This document shows, in pieces, positions 2,793 through 17,759 of a stretch of 36,381 bases of DNA; position 1 is the first letter of the stretch; every line of letters begins with the position of its first letter. This DNA is from Oscillospiraceae bacterium. GTDB taxonomy: Bacteria; Bacillota; Clostridia; Oscillospirales; Oscillospiraceae. The stretch is taken from contig WQVH01000018.1 of assembly GCA_009781695.1 (NCBI GenBank), forward strand, positions 1-36,381, given 5' to 3'. Made by a program: the position numbers and the translations under genes. The notes beneath the pieces are model-generated. The model was not told the origin of the DNA. It saw nothing but the letters and a program-made list of their open reading frames with translations, and ran no database searches.

Positions 2793-2899
2793 ATAAATAT
2801 AATCCTCGGTAAAAATCATTCAGCTTGTAAATATCTCGGTCATTTTACAACAAATATCTACTAAAAACAAGCTGACACTCACCGATATGTTTTTTTAAA

Positions 2900-2933
2900 T
2901 TGACACGAAGAATACAAACGCATAGTGTATAAT
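2900..2933 (+). promoter_or_regulatory. Promoter-like block A upstream of the truncated response regulator
   Basis: TTGACA at 2900-2905 and TATAAT at 2928-2933 are separated by 22 nt, too long for an ordinary sigma-A promoter. The block 2902-2933 recurs at 4895-4926 with 29 of 32 bases identical. It contains a rough dyad, ACACGAAG (2903-2910) against CATAGTGT (2921-2928), with 6 of 8 positions matching. A regulator-dependent promoter, for example one controlled by the neighbouring response regulator before it was truncated, is one reading. The start codon at 2971 has AAGGAT 6 nt upstream. Confidence 0.5.
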
Positions 2934-2970
2934 GATACAAATATATTAAATACCAACAAGGATCATAGAT

Positions 2971-3258
2971 ATGGATTGTAAAATACTCATCGTTGAAGAT
3001 GAACCCAAATTGCGTGAAATTTTGAGCGATTATTTTCTCAGCAAAAAAGATATACCATTTGAAGCATCAAATGGAGTAGAAGCACTGGAACTTATCAGTG
3101 AACACGACTTTGACGCAGTGCTGCTGGACATCATGATGCCTGAATTAGACGGCTTTTCCGTATGCCGAGCGCTGAGAAAAAACAGCGATATCCCCATTAT
3201 GTTTTTGACGGCGCTATCCGATGAGGACGACAAGCTTAACTTACACACGTATGAATAA
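2971..3258 (+). pseudogene. Response regulator, receiver domain only, truncated
   Basis: The first 88 residues form most of a CheY-like receiver domain of the OmpR type: acidic pair D10/E11, phospho-acceptor D53 in LLDIMMPELDG, and T80 in MFLTA. The match stops at DEDDKL. The expected conserved lysine near residue 102 and the whole winged-helix DNA-binding domain are missing. Seven foreign codons (NLHTYE and neighbours) lead to a stop at 3256-3258. The frame overlaps the start of cas2 by 8 nt, so a deletion seems to have fused this gene's 5' end to the region just before cas2. The foreign tail could be the end of a lost cas1, which I cannot confirm. No histidine kinase gene is present in the window. 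Confidence 0.8.
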
Positions 3259-3571
3259 ATTTATGAGAATTCTTGTATTTTTTGATTTGCCAGTTAAAAC
3301 AAAAGTCGAACGCCGTGTTGCAACACAATTCCGCAATTTTTTACTCAAAGACGGCTATCATATGTTGCAGTTTTCGTTTTATGCCCGGACGTGTAATGGG
3401 ATGGATGCGGTAGAAAAACACAGAAAACGCCTATATAACTGTCTGCCTAATAATGGGTCTGTTCGTATGCTTGTGATTACAGAAAAACAGTATCAGAGTA
3501 TTGAAATTATGGTGGGTAAGTTGGCTGTTCCTGACAACAGTTTTGAAACAGAGCAGTTGACGTTTTTCTAA
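3251..3571 (+). CDS. cas2: CRISPR-associated endonuclease Cas2, type II subtype
   Basis: Cas2 normally pairs with Cas1 in the spacer-integration complex. The 106-residue product begins MNKFMRILVFFDLPV, with the metal-site aspartate at D12. VERRVATQFRNFLLKDGY follows, and the end is EQLTFF, as in Cas2 proteins of type II systems. The start at 3251 gives the N-terminus seen in that family. No separate ribosome site is obvious, so translation is probably coupled to the truncated response-regulator frame, which it overlaps by 8 nt. Neither cas1 nor cas9 occurs anywhere in the window. A two-repeat array lies 100 nt downstream. The gene looks intact but is probably non-functional for adaptation unless Cas1 is supplied from elsewhere. 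Confidence 0.9.
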   Translation: MNKFMRILVFFDLPVKTKVERRVATQFRNFLLKDGYHMLQFSFYARTCNGMDAVEKHRKRLYNCLPNNGSVRMLVITEKQYQSIEIMVGKLAVPDNSFETEQLTFF

Positions 3572-3613
3572 AAAATCGAATTAATATCCAGAATTTTACT
3601 TAAATGCAGGCAA

Positions 3614-3676
3614 ATAATAAACTCCGCAAAAAGCGTGAATCCATTGATATCACAAGCTTTCTGCGGAGTTTATTAT
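3614..3676. repeat. 21-bp inverted repeat abutting the CRISPR array
   Basis: Arm 3614-3634 and arm 3656-3676 are complementary over 21 positions with a single mismatch that is a G-U pair when transcribed from the minus strand. The loop of 21 nt contains a smaller stem (GTGA at 3635-3638 with TCAC at 3650-3653). The last five bases of the right arm lie inside CRISPR repeat 1. In the crRNA direction the right arm fills much of the 30-nt stretch next to the repeat, where a spacer would sit. It may act as a terminator for cas2 or the array, although no clear T run follows. Confidence 0.65.
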
Positions 3677-3773
3677 ACCATACCAACAATCACCCGGGAA
3701 CTATAACCCATTATAAGTCCTCCAGTTCTACGTTAGCATTATACCATACCAACAATCACCCGGGGACTATAAT
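3672..3773 (-). CRISPR. Minimal type II-C-like array: two repeats, one spacer
   Basis: Two 36-nt repeats (3672-3707 and 3738-3773) differ at only two positions and enclose a spacer of exactly 30 nt (3708-3737). Read on the minus strand, the cas2-proximal repeat begins GTTATAG and ends TGGTATAAT. The start resembles type II repeats, and the end is a perfect extended -10 promoter box (TGnTATAAT). Promoters embedded in repeats are known from type II-C arrays of Neisseria and Campylobacter, so each spacer may be transcribed from its own repeat toward cas2. The other copy has lost the initial G, as terminal repeats often do. No cas9, cas1 or tracrRNA anti-repeat is visible in this window. The Rpn gene stop lies 8 nt away. 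Confidence 0.85.
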
Positions 3774-3781
3774 AGCAATGC

Positions 3782-4621
3782 CTAAGTCATAAATTTATTT
3801 ATGACCGACAAAACATCGTGTAGTGCAAGACCCATAGACTCAGCAATGCGCTCGGGCGACTCTTGCTTAAGATATCTTTTCAATATATCCACGGCCTTTG
3901 CCTCACCCTCAAGCTTCCCTTCAAGCTTTCCTTCGGCTCTGCCTTCCGCTCTCAACTGATTATCATAAGAAAACAAATCATTATACACGGCAGTAAAATC
4001 CTCCTTTTCAACAATCTCGCTCAAATAACCTTTCGTTTCGCATTGCCTGACAGCATACTTAAAAGCCTCTAGCTCCGGAATACGCTCACTGAGCTTTTTC
4101 TCATACTCATACTGCAAATATGAATAACCTGCAAGGTAGTTATCAGTATGCTTGTTCTTTAGTTTGTTGTAACGAATGTTTACAATTGGAACCTTTATTT
4201 GCAAAAATTCCCCACAGTCATAGCATTCATGTCCCCTGCTTAATGGCTTTTTGCCATTGTAAGCCACATAAAGTTCCGGTTTGGGAAACATAGCCTCCTG
4301 CTCCGAGTGAATATTCACACCTTCACGTTCAATCCAAAGCTTCAACAATTCGAAGAAATAAGCCCCAAGCTTGACAGCTAGATTTGATGAAACCGTACTC
4401 TGATGTTCAACCATGTATATCAGACGATTATCGGTGGTAATAAACGACACATCATTATACCGTTCGCGCTGCACAACATCTGAGTCCAGATCAAAACAAG
4501 TGATGTCATCAGCACTTAAACGTTTACCGGAAAAGGCTTCGTACAAATCAACAAAATGTCTACGCTCTTTAAATACATATTTGAAAAGCGTGTCTTTATA
4601 GTTTCTCTTTACCTCGTCCAC
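3782..4621 (-). CDS. Rpn-family PD-(D/E)XK nuclease / putative transposase
   Basis: The 279-residue product belongs to the Rpn/transposase_31-like group, nucleases that promote RecA-independent recombination and are common as mobile-type genes. The PD-(D/E)XK core is visible as NDVSF (D57) and VEHQST (E72, Q74). The C-terminal EGRAEGKLEGKLEGEAK stretch (about 227-243) is typical of the family. The start is GTG at 4621, with AAAGGAAGAG about 7 nt upstream, and a TTGATA-17-TAAATT promoter is suggested at 4643-4671. The gene ends 8 nt from the CRISPR array and is transcribed in the same direction as the predicted crRNAs. It may have taken part in the rearrangement that removed cas9 and cas1. Confidence 0.88.
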   Translation of the reverse strand: MDEVKRNYKDTLFKYVFKERRHFVDLYEAFSGKRLSADDITCFDLDSDVVQRERYNDVSFITTDNRLIYMVEHQSTVSSNLAVKLGAYFFELLKLWIEREGVNIHSEQEAMFPKPELYVAYNGKKPLSRGHECYDCGEFLQIKVPIVNIRYNKLKNKHTDNYLAGYSYLQYEYEKKLSERIPELEAFKYAVRQCETKGYLSEIVEKEDFTAVYNDLFSYDNQLRAEGRAEGKLEGKLEGEAKAVDILKRYLKQESPERIAESMGLALHDVLSVINKFMT

Positions 4622-4671: not shown

Positions 4672-4894
4672 TGTAATTTCGATAACTGCCACATCAATTA
4701 TAATACCGCAAGCCCCCTATGTCATTACACATTTGATTCACAATCTAAGCGGACGTTAAGCGTTGAAAACTGTGAAAACTAATCACAAGCTACCGAGGTT
4801 CAACTCTCGGTAGCTTGAAAAATCAGCTAAATATTTTATCTTGGGTTCTCCAAGAACAACTCAACACCGCCGTAACATAACATTTTTTCAAAAC
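4672..4894. other. Intergenic stretch with a perfect 12-bp hairpin
   Basis: No gene was found here. The main feature is a perfect 12-bp stem, CAAGCTACCGAG (4786-4797) with its complement at 4806-4817, and an 8-nt loop. No T run follows on either strand, so a Rho-independent terminator is not well supported. The loop contains GTTCAA, but the stem does not fit a tRNA T-arm. Promoter-like block B follows at 4895. Confidence 0.6.
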
Positions 4895-4926
4895 GACACG
4901 AAGAGTACAAATCCATAGTGTATAAT
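4895..4926 (+). promoter_or_regulatory. Promoter-like block B, second copy
   Basis: This block matches 2902-2933 at 29 of 32 positions, ending in the same CATAGTGTATAAT. T runs precede both copies. The -35-like TTGACA of copy A is not conserved here (ACGACA). No plus-strand gene follows, since the next gene at 4961-5359 is antisense. It is either a left-over promoter from a lost gene, a regulator site, or a duplicated edge of the CRISPR/Rpn island. Confidence 0.5.
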
Positions 4927-4960
4927 ACAAGGGCGTCATCAACGAAGCTGACTGAGGGAG

Positions 4961-8791: not shown

Positions 8792-8821
8792 TTGACAGAG
8801 TGTGCATCATAATGATATGTT
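8792..8821 (+). promoter_or_regulatory. Predicted promoter of the molybdenum-cofactor operon
   Basis: A perfect -35 TTGACA (8792-8797) is followed after 18 nt by TATGTT (8816-8821), and TGA directly before it gives an extended -10. Transcription would begin near 8828. That excludes the upstream in-frame codons at 8802, 8817 and 8823 as starts of moeA. Confidence 0.6.
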
Positions 8822-8846
8822 CATGTTCGATGGGTGGTGGGGTGTG

Positions 8847-10061
8847 GTGTTAAAAAATGTTGATACAGACATGGCGATGAAACTGTTATTTGAACAGCGT
8901 GCTGATCTGCGCACGGAAACGGTCACGCTCGATCATGCGCTGCTACGTATCATCTCACAGACCGTATATGCCAAAATGCCCATCCCGCCATTTGATAGAA
9001 GCCCTTTCGACGGCTACGCTTTTCGTGCCGAAGACACAGTAGGGGCATCGTATGATCACCCTACTATTTTAAAAATCGTTGAAGAGCTTCCCGCAGGCAC
9101 TTTACCAAAACATGAAATCACTGCCGGACTGGCCGCTAAGATTCTGACCGGCGCACCAATACCCAAGGGCGCAAACACCACAATAAAATACGAAGATACA
9201 GAGTTTTCTGATCAGGAAGTGCGTATTTTTTCACCCATTAAACCGAATACCAACTTAGTTTATGCAGGAGCGGATGTAAAAGCCGATGACGTGCTTGCCC
9301 TACAGGGTGCAGTGGTTAGCGCTCCGATGATTTCATCTTTTGCAAATCAAGGCTTTGTCGGTGTCGATGTTTATAAAAAACCTATGATTACAGTGATCAG
9401 CACTGGCACTGAGCTTTGTGAAATAGGCCAGCCGCTTAAAGCGGCATCCATATACAACAGTAATGTACATACGATTTGTGCATATTTAGACAGCTTTGGG
9501 GCAATGCCGATAAACGGTGGCTGTGTTCCCGATGAGTCTGTGGTTATTGCCGAAAAAATCAAATCGGCACTGAGTGTTTCGGACATGGTGATCACAACAG
9601 GCGGCGCATCGGTCGGTGATTATGACTGGGCGGTCACTGCCATGAAGGAATTGGACGCGCAAATACTATTTTGGAAGACCTCATTAAGGCCCGGCGGAGC
9701 TACGCTCGCAGCGGTTGTGGACGGTAAAATCGTGCTGGGACTTTCCGGCAATCCCGCCGCCGCAGTCATTGGGCTTCTGCGTATTGGGATGCCTTATATA
9801 AAGAAACTCTGCGGTAGAGCGGATTGTTTTTTTCAGGAAATATATCTCAAGCTTTGTGAGCCGGTTTCCAAAGATAGTCCCAAGCAGCGTATACTTCGCG
9901 GCACATTGGAAATTGAAGACGCTATAGCATATTTTAAAGAAAGCGGCAGTCAAGGCAGCGAAACCATATCTTCGTTTGATCAGTGCGACCTATTGGGAGA
10001 AATCCCGATGGGATCTCCTCCATTACCCGCCGGGGCAATAATTAAAGCTTATAGGATGTAA
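8847..10061 (+). CDS. moeA: Molybdopterin molybdenumtransferase
   Basis: MoeA inserts molybdate into adenylylated molybdopterin in the last step of cofactor assembly. Recognisable blocks are MPIPPFDRSPFDGYAFRAED, ISTGTELCEIG, VITTGGASVGDYDW and LGLSGNPAAAVIG, followed by the C-terminal barrel (domain IV). I chose the GTG at 8847 because family similarity begins here (VLKNVDTDMAM) and a promoter overlaps the earlier starts. The region before it, GGGTGGTGG, can serve as a ribosome site. The longest frame would start at GTG 8802. It is the first gene of the operon, and moaA begins 3 nt after its stop. Confidence 0.92.
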   Translation: MLKNVDTDMAMKLLFEQRADLRTETVTLDHALLRIISQTVYAKMPIPPFDRSPFDGYAFRAEDTVGASYDHPTILKIVEELPAGTLPKHEITAGLAAKILTGAPIPKGANTTIKYEDTEFSDQEVRIFSPIKPNTNLVYAGADVKADDVLALQGAVVSAPMISSFANQGFVGVDVYKKPMITVISTGTELCEIGQPLKAASIYNSNVHTICAYLDSFGAMPINGGCVPDESVVIAEKIKSALSVSDMVITTGGASVGDYDWAVTAMKELDAQILFWKTSLRPGGATLAAVVDGKIVLGLSGNPAAAVIGLLRIGMPYIKKLCGRADCFFQEIYLKLCEPVSKDSPKQRILRGTLEIEDAIAYFKESGSQGSETISSFDQCDLLGEIPMGSPPLPAGAIIKAYRM

Positions 10062-10064
10062 TGT

Positions 10065-11012
10065 ATGAAAGATAGTTTTGGTAGGGATATTTACTATTTG
10101 CGCATGTCGGTGACCAATCGATGCAACCTCAGGTGTGTGTATTGTATGCCTGAAGGCTGTTCGGACTGGGGTGACAAAGAGGGCATCTTATCTATTGATG
10201 AAATTGTCGAAATTGTACGTGCAGCATCGGTCTGCGGAATAAAAAAGATTCGCCTGACCGGTGGTGAGCCGCTGGTGCGTGCAGATATCGTCGAAATCTG
10301 CCGGAGGGTTTCTGAGACACCGGGCATTACAGAGCTTTGTCTCACGACCAATGGCATTTTACTGCCCAAATTTGTCGACGAGCTTAAGACCTCCGGTGTG
10401 ACACGGCTCAACATCAGTCTGGATTCTCTTGACCCTGTCACGTATAAGGATATTACAAGAAACGGAACGCTTGAAGGTGCGCTCAGCGGTGTTTATGCTG
10501 CACTTGATAGAGGGTTTAAGGCAGTAAAGATCAATGCCGTGCTCATCGGCGGGGTCAATGATAACGAGATACTTTCTCTGCTGGAACTCACCCGAAAGCA
10601 CAATGCGCACGTACGGTTTATCGAGATGATGCCTATAGGTGAAACTGCTGATTGGGCCGAAACCCGGTTTGTCAGCGTAGATAAAGTAAAGGAGATCGCA
10701 TCTGAACTTGTGGAGATTGGTTCAGAGGGTGTGGCTCAGCTTTATCGTTTGCCTGATGGTCTGGGTACGGTCGGGCTGATCAGTCCGATCAGTTCTCACT
10801 TTTGCCCAACGTGTAATCGCATCAGAGTGGCCTCGGATGGGAAGCTAAAGCCCTGTTTGCATTCGCCGGATGAGATTGATTTGCGTGGACTTTCGGGTAA
10901 GGCGCTTGAGGATGCTATTCACTTAGCTATTTATGATAAGCCTTTTAAGCATAAGCTCGATGATGGGCATGTCAGCGAGAGTATGCGTAATATGAACGAA
11001 ATCGGTGGGTAG
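10065..11012 (+). CDS. moaA: GTP 3',8-cyclase MoaA (radical SAM)
   Basis: MoaA converts GTP to 3',8-cyclo-GTP, the first step of molybdopterin synthesis. The N-terminal cluster cysteines are C20, C24 and C27 (CNLRCVYC). The SAM motif GGEPL is at 66-70. The C-terminal cluster cysteines are C247, C250 and C264 in CPTCNRIRV and KPCL. The protein ends in the twin glycine (314-315) that is needed for catalysis in the family. The length of 315 residues is normal. AGGAT lies upstream of the ATG. It sits between moeA and moaC in the same operon. Confidence 0.96.
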   Translation: MKDSFGRDIYYLRMSVTNRCNLRCVYCMPEGCSDWGDKEGILSIDEIVEIVRAASVCGIKKIRLTGGEPLVRADIVEICRRVSETPGITELCLTTNGILLPKFVDELKTSGVTRLNISLDSLDPVTYKDITRNGTLEGALSGVYAALDRGFKAVKINAVLIGGVNDNEILSLLELTRKHNAHVRFIEMMPIGETADWAETRFVSVDKVKEIASELVEIGSEGVAQLYRLPDGLGTVGLISPISSHFCPTCNRIRVASDGKLKPCLHSPDEIDLRGLSGKALEDAIHLAIYDKPFKHKLDDGHVSESMRNMNEIGG

Positions 11013-11036
11013 CAGCGATGAAAGGATTATTTATAT

Positions 11037-11513
11037 ATGTCTAAACTTACACATTTTAACGATGAAGGTCACGCCAGAATGGTGGATGTCAGCTACAAAC
11101 AAGTGACCACACGTGAGGCCATTGCCGGTGCGACTGTACTGATGAATGCCCCTACGTTTAGCCATGTAATGCGTGGTGAAATGAAAAAGGGAGATGTCTT
11201 GGCAGTTGCGCAGGTTGCAGGGATTATGGCGGCCAAAAAGACTTCGGATGTCATTCCAATGTGCCATCCTATTGTCATAACCGGAGTGGATATTTCCTAT
11301 GTTTGTGATGAGATGCGCAATGCGATTGATATTACCGCCACGGTACGTTGCAAGGGCGAAACCGGCGTGGAGATGGAGGCGCTGACCGCAGCGTCTGTTA
11401 CGGCGCTGACGATTTATGATATGTGCAAAGCTGCGCAAAAAGATATAAAAATTACAGATATTCGCTTGCTCAAGAAGACCGGCGGCAAGTCAGGAGATTG
11501 GGTAGCGGAATAA
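11037..11513 (+). CDS. moaC: Cyclic pyranopterin monophosphate synthase
   Basis: MoaC rearranges the MoaA product into cyclic pyranopterin monophosphate. The 158-residue protein shows the family blocks [13 protein letters not shown] (67-79), [10 protein letters not shown] (109-118), YDMCKA and the C-terminal [10 protein letters not shown] (144-153). AAAGGA lies about 11 nt before the ATG. It is 24 nt downstream of moaA. The next gene, encoding a MOSC protein, follows after about 96 nt that hold a small hairpin. Confidence 0.96.
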
Positions 11514-11609: not shown

Positions 11610-12047
11610 ATGGCAAAAGTATCAGCAGTATGTATTAGTGATATTAAAGGTGTGATCAAAAAGCCGGTATCCGAAATATTTGTCAAAATAGACCATGGCA
11701 TTGAGGGCGATGCACACGCAGGGCAGTGGCACAGACAAGTCAGTCTGCTCGGAGATGAAAGTGTGGACAAATTGCGTGCGCAAATGCCGAATCTTAAGGC
11801 GGGCGTTTTTGCGGAAAATATTTTGACCAGCGGCATATGTCTTTATGAGTTACCGATTGGTACAAAGTTGCGTATAGGGCAGGCACTTCTGTCAGTGACA
11901 CAAATTGGCAAAGAGTGCCACAATCAAGGATGCGCCATAAAAAGACAAACCGGAGATTGTGTGATGCCGCGTGAAGGCATTTTTGCGCAAGTTATAGAAG
12001 AAGGTGCGATAAAAGCCGGTGATGAGATTGAGGTAGTTCCGCAATAA
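11610..12047 (+). CDS. MOSC domain protein
   Basis: MOSC domains bind and transfer sulfur or molybdenum cofactor through a conserved cysteine. The 145-residue protein covers the whole domain. HGIEGDAHAGQWHRQVSLL lies in the first third, and IGKECHNQGCAIKRQTGDC plus MPREGIFA lie near the C-terminus, as in stand-alone bacterial MOSC proteins. I chose the ATG at 11610 because AGGAGTG lies 8 nt upstream. An earlier ATG at 11589 has no such site. The stop overlaps the next gene (TAATG). A role in maturing the cofactor of a molybdoenzyme encoded elsewhere is inferred from context. Confidence 0.88.
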   Translation: MAKVSAVCISDIKGVIKKPVSEIFVKIDHGIEGDAHAGQWHRQVSLLGDESVDKLRAQMPNLKAGVFAENILTSGICLYELPIGTKLRIGQALLSVTQIGKECHNQGCAIKRQTGDCVMPREGIFAQVIEEGAIKAGDEIEVVPQ

Positions 12048-16724: not shown

Positions 16725-16762
16725 AAAAGCGGGCATCCTCTGTTTGGGGAGTACCCGCTTTT
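16725..16762. terminator. Bidirectional Rho-independent terminator
   Basis: AAAAGCGGG (16725-16733) pairs with CCCGCTTTT (16754-16762), with a further inner TCCTC/GGGGA stem. The stem is flanked by A and T runs, so it can stop glnN transcripts from the left and the PIN-partner transcripts from the right. Confidence 0.8.
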
Positions 16763-16772
16763 GCGGTTAGGG

Positions 16773-16967
16773 CTATGCGGTTTTAGTAGTTCGGTTTCCT
16801 GCTGGTACAACCTCAACTTCTTTTCCCCATTTTGCCATTTCTTCAACAAACCATTTTGTTGTTTCTTCGTATTCTTTTGAGATTTCTTCATCTGTCATTT
16901 TTAAGTGCCGTTCTGAATTTTCATCCCTAATTTCCCGGATTTCAAGCATGGCTTTGCTTTCAAACAT
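16773..16967 (-). CDS. Small acidic partner of PIN toxin, putative antitoxin
   Basis: The 64-residue product is helical and charged: it begins MFESKAMLEIREIRDENSER and contains TDEEISKEYEETTKWFVEEM. It resembles small proteins often encoded directly after PIN-domain genes. Their antitoxin function is inferred, not shown. The ATG lies one base after the PIN stop codon, and GAGGTAG inside the end of the PIN gene can act as its ribosome site, which indicates translational coupling. The toxin-first order is the reverse of most type II systems. The bidirectional terminator lies just downstream. Confidence 0.7.
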   Translation of the reverse strand: MFESKAMLEIREIRDENSERHLKMTDEEISKEYEETTKWFVEEMAKWGKEVEVVPAGNRTTKTA

Positions 16968-16968
16968 T

Positions 16969-17445
16969 TTAGTCTACCTCCTCTATTAACATAGTCGGCG
17001 ATATAATTCCAATTTCCTTGTAGCGTTGAATCGTGTTTACAATCCTGACTTTATCAATTGTCTTGAAATTGACAAGGTGCTTAAAATTCCATGACACAAT
17101 GGCATCACAATTTGATATTACTGCAAAAGCAATGTGTTCACAGTCATCTCTGCTTTTTTCATTTAGCACTCCGCTTTTGAGGTATTCGTATGCCAAGTCC
17201 TTTACCTCTTTGGTTTCAGCCAAAACTTGAAGTGCTATTTGGCTTAGTTTTTCAAACATTTGACTTTGCTTTGGCTCTGTGCATCTTTTTATTTCCGCGA
17301 GTACCACAGGCGAAATGTAAACATCATATTTTCCGGCGATCAACTCATTCCATAAGCGGTCTGTATGTCGCATTTTCTCAGGCGTGTCATCGGCAAATAA
17401 ATGACTGATAACTGACGTATCGAGATACAATCTTAGCTTCCGCAT
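16969..17445 (-). CDS. PIN-domain ribonuclease, putative toxin
   Basis: PIN domains cut RNA with a cluster of acidic residues and Mg ions, and many are VapC-like toxins. In this 158-residue protein the likely catalytic residues are D9 (LYLDTSVIS), E51 (SPVVLAEIK), D100 or D101 (SRDDCEHIA) and D114 (CDAIVSWNFKHL). AGGAGGT lies 7 nt before the ATG at 17445, so the longer frame back to 17493 is not needed. It is the first gene of a two-gene unit with the acidic partner at 16773-16967. Confidence 0.85.
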   Translation of the reverse strand: MRKLRLYLDTSVISHLFADDTPEKMRHTDRLWNELIAGKYDVYISPVVLAEIKRCTEPKQSQMFEKLSQIALQVLAETKEVKDLAYEYLKSGVLNEKSRDDCEHIAFAVISNCDAIVSWNFKHLVNFKTIDKVRIVNTIQRYKEIGIISPTMLIEEVD

Positions 17446-17759
17446 TGTATTACCTCCTGTTGTGCGACCAATTTTGTGATAGTTCATTACCATTTTATCT
17501 GTTGTGTGAATAATTCAAGATCACTATACTACAAAGAGAGCCGCTTTTCAATGTGAGCATTTTCTTAGTATTTGTTTTTATTATACTTGATATTCTATGT
17601 GTCGGCAAACTCAATTCCGTGTCACAATGTAAACAGCTTGAAACCTATGCAAAAATCCACCAATAGAATTCTGTGGAATTTAGATAATTTCCATAGGAAT
17701 AAACCTAAAGAGATATGATGAAGTGAGCAGTACGCAAAAGTGGATGACAAGACACATAA
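17446..17759. other. Gene-free stretch with nested short inverted repeats
   Basis: No convincing gene was found. CCTATG (17645-17650) pairs with CATAGG (17693-17698), and within it TCCAC (17657-17661) pairs with GTGGA (17674-17678) around the palindrome AGAATTCT. This lies just beyond the 3' end of the lipoprotein gene and may be a transcript-end structure. No T run follows. The stretch also holds the 5' region of the PIN gene, without a clear promoter. Confidence 0.5.

Follow-up and report, generated by a model that had tools for sequence, protein, structure and literature searches.

In the window analysed here, which is the whole of contig G000:C18 (36,381 nt) from an Oscillospiraceae assembly of 2.2 Mb in 106 contigs (estimated 98.4% complete and 2.2% contaminated), an intact cas2 gene lies directly behind the beginning of a response-regulator gene. 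We consider this locus, with a probability of roughly 0.78, to be a deletion scar, left when a type II-C CRISPR-Cas locus was destroyed, cas2 being a recent leftover that has not yet mutated. Such a reading is supported by the switch of homology from regulator to cas1 within 3 nt, by the shortening of the array to a single spacer whose second flanking repeat deviates, and by the worn-down state of a related locus in G016:C45. In this scenario, one break would have fallen at regulator codon 88 and the other in the last cas1 codons, the ends being sealed probably at about 3 shared nucleotides. The deletion would have taken cas9, almost the whole of cas1, the regulator end and a partner kinase if there was one, with the regulator frame left, by chance, open to the cas1 stop. 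The upstream element, the regulator stub, the cas1 tail and cas2 might then constitute one transcription unit, in which the surviving cas1/cas2 overlap could couple the translation of cas2 to that of the stub. We infer an earlier position of the regulator upstream of cas9 in this lineage, a single deletion event, and transcription from the old promoter. A regulator upstream of cas9 was not seen in any genome we examined, and this counts against the deletion reading.

Parts of PMC6882279 describe type II loci that were partially lost, with some of the locus left behind, in at least 8 of 21 systems. The window resembles those systems in the partial loss of cas genes, whereas the fusion with a regulator frame is a peculiarity of the window genome among the cases compared. 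The locus may be regarded as a snapshot of the death of a type II-C locus, in which the effector and the integrase are lost, while cas2 and one spacer are kept.

Table 1. Features of the region around cas2 (window positions; a dot marks features given no strand)
Feature	Position	Strand	Basis
Upstream element P1 of the regulator, promoter-like by position (putative role)	2902..2933	+	32-nt repeat with 4895-4926
Truncated response-regulator receiver, codons 1-88	2971..3234	+	Pfam Response_reg, profile 1-86 of 111
Joint regulator/cas1	3234..3237	.	blastn ends 3236 and 3234; sequences aligned side by side
Last seven cas1 codons and stop, in frame with the receiver	3235..3258	+	Cas1 C-termini of L012 and L013
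Intact type II cas2, 106 aa	3251..3571	+	Pfam CRISPR_Cas2 and NCBIfam cas2
Hairpin between cas2 and repeat 1	3614..3676	.	24-nt arms, paired changes in relatives
CRISPR repeat 1	3672..3707	+	identical to 12 repeats of L013; 1 mismatch to 13 of L012
Single spacer, 30 nt	3708..3737	+	repeat-spacer-repeat layout
CRISPR repeat 2	3738..3773	+	2 mismatches
P2, second copy of the upstream element	4872..4931	+	88% over 60 nt to G016:C45 (L083 9383-9442)

The joint between regulator and cas1

The 95-aa product of the ORF at 2971-3258 matches Pfam Response_reg over residues 5-89 (E 1.5e-20) and, reaching profile position 86 of 111, is incomplete as the receiver of an OmpR-type regulator. No Trans_reg_C match for a C-terminal DNA-binding domain was found in the stub, while the regulator of L081 carries both Pfam domains. 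The closest counterparts are OmpR-type two-component systems of two members of the same genus, G016:C38 (L081) and G015:C118 (L082), to which the first 88 codons are 81% and 76% identical, respectively, and in which the upstream element is alike. There, the regulator is full length and a histidine kinase gene comes next, whereas in the window the receiver end and the DNA-binding domain are missing and no kinase is found. Elsewhere in the window's own genome, the regulators found at E 1e-12 do not exceed 44% identity to the stub, and a query made of the kinase sensor half gave no match.

Similarity to the intact regulators of L081 and L082 stops in blastn at 3236, and similarity to the complete CRISPR loci L012 and L013 starts at 3234; the cut near residue 88 that the earlier note had read from the letters alone is thereby confirmed. 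In the alignment, the window follows the regulators with GACGACAAG and then continues with CTTAACTTACACACGTATGAATAAATTTATG, as found at the end of cas1 and the start of cas2 of L012. The GCT at the joint fits the regulator and cas1 sides alike, leaving about 3 nt ambiguous. The earlier note had the regulator frame run seven codons into the start of cas2. The seven codons and the overlap are real, but the residues LNLHTYE that follow the receiver are the end of Cas1, which reads LSLHKYE in L012 and LKLHTYE in L013; the first Leu may be assigned to either gene. The stub ORF and the cas2 ORF (3251-3571) overlap by 8 nt, and the overlap ATGAATAA is the usual cas1/cas2 form, present in 8 of the 9 relatives compared (the ninth, L016, reads ATGAATAG). 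With this overlap surviving, translational coupling, as also proposed in the earlier note, is plausible.

One might suspect an assembly chimera, with the assembler having linked a regulator and a cas2 of separate genomic or even organismal origin; the window makes up an entire contig in an assembly of 106 contigs whose contamination is estimated at 2.2%, which would favour such a suspicion. However, no more than about 3 nt are common to both flanks of the joint, and the word lengths used by assemblers are far above 3 nt. Nor is either flank duplicated elsewhere in the genome, the sole other match to 3080-3571 being 39 nt at 85%, and G016 too has such a kinase inside a CRISPR relic. We therefore regard a chimera as unlikely. 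A search of viral_contigs for the 40-nt joint was negative, which says little, this being a viral collection.

A probable leftover cas2 and its array

The earlier description of cas2 as an intact type II gene holds: the ORF matches CRISPR_Cas2 of Pfam (E 7.3e-15) and cas2 of NCBIfam (E 7.6e-21), and its product is 90% and 88% identical to the Cas2 proteins of L012 and L013. It is the only Cas2 match in the genome. The loss of cas9 and of most of cas1 and of the regulator agrees with the genome searches, which yielded no intact copy of this regulator, no PF01867 match for cas1 (controls detected in 9 of 14), of which only the last codons are left, and, in a search that had no positive control, no match to the Cas9 protein of L013. 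Used as a tblastn query, this protein did detect cas9 in all 35 of the related loci. Of the components of a type II-C locus, cas2 and an array with a matching repeat were found in the window, cas9 and cas1 were not.

The comparison with relatives called for in the earlier note supplied both ancestral-type arrangements: full regulators in L081 and L082, and cas9-cas1-cas2-array in the type II-C loci L012 (G011:C20, same genus) and L013 (G027:C23, same family). The last two share with the window the cas1/cas2 overlap and the place of array and hairpin; in L012 and L013, where type II-C would imply neither csn2 nor cas4, the array directly follows cas2. They possess complete cas9 and cas1 genes and 12 to 13 repeats, in contrast to the seven cas1 codons, cas2 and two repeats of the window. 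Among 35 related cas2 loci, all from close relatives and found by short patterns, a cas9 match lies beside cas2 in every one and a cas1 match in 34; both genes are lost in none. The single locus without a cas1 match, L032 (4400-4960), is a decaying type II locus with cas9 present, cas1 lacking its middle and cas2 interrupted by two in-frame stops. The host codes of relatives L012-L017, L020 and L024 (Emb289, Lab288, Co191, Th196) appear in parts of a study of genomes from higher-termite guts (PMC7024585), and judging by these relatives the window's organism would be a gut bacterium.

The earlier note omitted the repeat-spacer-repeat array at 3672-3773, which is the mark of a CRISPR relic and begins 100 bp behind cas2. 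These two repeats are the only such repeats in the genome, and none was seen one period to either side of them. The spacer had no exact match in viral_contigs and no match in phages. Cas2 requires Cas1 to add spacers, and an array requires Cas9 for defence; as neither Cas1 nor Cas9 was found, Cas2 and the array should be idle. The hairpin in front of the array reaches into repeat 1. In 8 sequences chosen from 10 aligned, 9 of its 19 predicted pairs changed on both sides, while pairing at some positions is disrupted in as many as 3 of these sequences. It is possibly a bidirectional terminator; a terminator scan of 2820-3800 gave 1 site against 0.6 expected, the hairpin not being listed.

A different view of cas2 is that it was domesticated, i.e., that after the deletion it came under selection as a nuclease with a new task, driven by the old regulator promoter. 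A non-immune role of a Cas2 has been reported in Legionella, as parts of PMC3798603 describe, and would provide a precedent. The gene itself is well preserved: none of 45 conserved columns is violated, and its leave-one-out profile score ranks 8th of 33 (the comparison comprised the window and 32 of the 35 loci, without L042, L044 and L046; the window itself contributed to the count of conserved columns). The translation overlap is kept as well, and in L032, where cas1 has lost its middle, cas2 already carries stops. Nevertheless, the non-functional stub is just as intact and not accelerated, its branch showing an amino-acid change of 0.049 versus 0.067 and 0.112 (difference from L081 with a 95% interval of -0.075 to +0.051) and no stops. 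An unselected cas2 at 0.05 substitutions per site would, moreover, be free of stops about half the time (probability 0.53). The Cas2 branch shows a change of 0.048 versus 0.021 and 0.025 in its two nearest relatives, a difference that is not significant (95% interval -0.004 to +0.060); this roughly twofold change leans towards relaxed constraint, and plain tree shape would fit it too. The branch and stop tests on cas2 and stub have little power, and synonymous sites are near saturation, hence no dN/dS ratio is given.

Since the stub is equally undamaged, the loss looks recent, and the intactness of cas2 is explained without selection. In other words, an intact cas2 is what a recent loss predicts and is not evidence of domestication. 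The undamaged stub beside cas2 serves here as an internal clock, illustrating that an intact leftover gene alone is no proof of domestication. It also speaks against domestication that the promoter scan yielded nothing above shuffles, that this is the sole Cas2 copy in its genome, and that no second species among the relatives compared has the same arrangement. In the literature searched, we found nothing on isolated, solo, stand-alone or orphan cas2 or on cas2 remnants, which is no proof of absence in print. Overall, we hold domestication to be very unlikely; with no positive evidence for it, decay is clearly the more likely fate, and the equal odds given to the two in the earlier note should be abandoned.

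The upstream element and the relic of a related species

Upstream of the stub, blastn similarity to the two-component systems begins at 2899 (L081) and 2897 (L082) and takes in the element we call P. By pattern, P occurs in 2 of the 19 genomes of the genus, with two copies each, and the G015 blastn match extends across a weaker form of it. Both copies of the window's own genome lie in the window and flank cas2 and the array, P1 and P2 being alike over 32 nt only. No regulator or kinase stands behind P2, whereas the L083 copy at 9383-9442 precedes a kinase. We are inclined to see in P2 a remnant of another two-component copy that lay behind the array.

A promoter scan of 2820-3800 returned 3 sites against 3.7 expected, not above shuffles, so that a promoter role of P is argued only from its position and conservation. 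The proposal of the earlier note that cas2 may be read from the regulator promoter is compatible with the layout but gains nothing from the scan. It may be that cas2 is still transcribed from P1.

A related locus of another species of the genus, G016:C45 (L083), is also decaying, its cas9 and cas2 being reduced to scraps. There, a Cas9-like piece is joined to a cas2 scrap, behind which come the leader and a perfect repeat; next is P with a complete 680-aa histidine kinase, and then another repeat. The Cas9-like piece reads TEEQLKTLYEHSNSDIYQIR and was compared by eye with L012; tblastn at 1e-4 did not report it. The repeat at 11629 has 32 of 36 matches. One 66-nt period before and after it, the repeat is matched at 17 and 18 of 36 positions; such or higher scores occur at 0.35% and 0.13% of positions elsewhere in the L083 locus; with position disregarded, they stay within the maxima of shuffled sequence from that region. 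We conclude that, over L083 9324-11730, the kinase with its upstream element sits between a perfect repeat and degenerate repeats that keep the 66-nt register. The G016 locus thus indicates that a CRISPR array can be split by an ordinary gene. The kinase in G016 stands behind cas2 and not before cas9. In a sample of 400 family genomes searched with the kinase sensor, 11 had distant matches (25-40%), G015 and G016 not being among the matches of that sample.

The order in G016:C45 allows another history for the window, in which the ancestral arrangement was cas9-cas1-cas2-array-P-regulator-kinase and a tandem duplication, or the reinsertion of an excised circle, joined the regulator to the cas1 of the next unit, with losses to follow. 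Consistent with it, P and kinase in G016:C45 stand behind cas2 and a repeat, and in the window cas2 and the array are flanked by P at either end. However, the likeness of P1 and P2 is limited to 32 nt, and P2 is closest to the copy in the G016 array, while the stub is closest to the system of G016:C38, a separate one; this points to two distinct copies and not to a single duplicated unit. Given also that no duplicated cas2 or array is left in the genome, we find a duplication or circle junction unlikely.

Control of CRISPR-Cas by two-component regulators appears to be treated in PMC8523701 and PMC12216829. A more far-reaching proposal would be that a two-component system and the type II-C locus became physically linked in this genus, so closely in G016:C45 that a complete kinase came to lie within the array, and that the solo cas2 of the window, under the regulator promoter and coupled to the stub, is kept for a non-immune task; to this we attach very little credence.

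Genomic surroundings

The position of the scar was compared with the trmB loci of the genus, trmB being present in 12 of 19 genomes, the window's own included. In the 11 other trmB loci, an OGG-type glycosylase directly adjoins in 9, lies about 2 kb off in 1 and is missing in 1, where a contig end is close by. To the right of trmB, none of the 36 window proteins tested had a match in these 11 loci; conserved gene order therefore breaks off where the scar lies, and an empty site could not be read.

Between the array and P2 lies an ORF of 279 codons (3782-4621) with no Pfam family above the cut-off, which we take to be similar to Rpn-type transposase-like nucleases. Rfam gave 0 matches at the gathering cut-off. 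Further along, window positions 16762-17472 are 87% identical in DNA to L083 8270-8979, a stretch just upstream of the G016 CRISPR relic, and the protein encoded at 16969-17493, presumably resembling a PIN-domain toxin, is 91% identical. Could this be a shared mobile piece? An inverted repeat at the contig end (1-115, with 31-nt arms that are 81% complementary) is perhaps a small transposable element. Finally, genes at 8802-11513 match MoeA-like molybdopterin proteins and MoaC, which suggests that the organism may make molybdenum cofactor.
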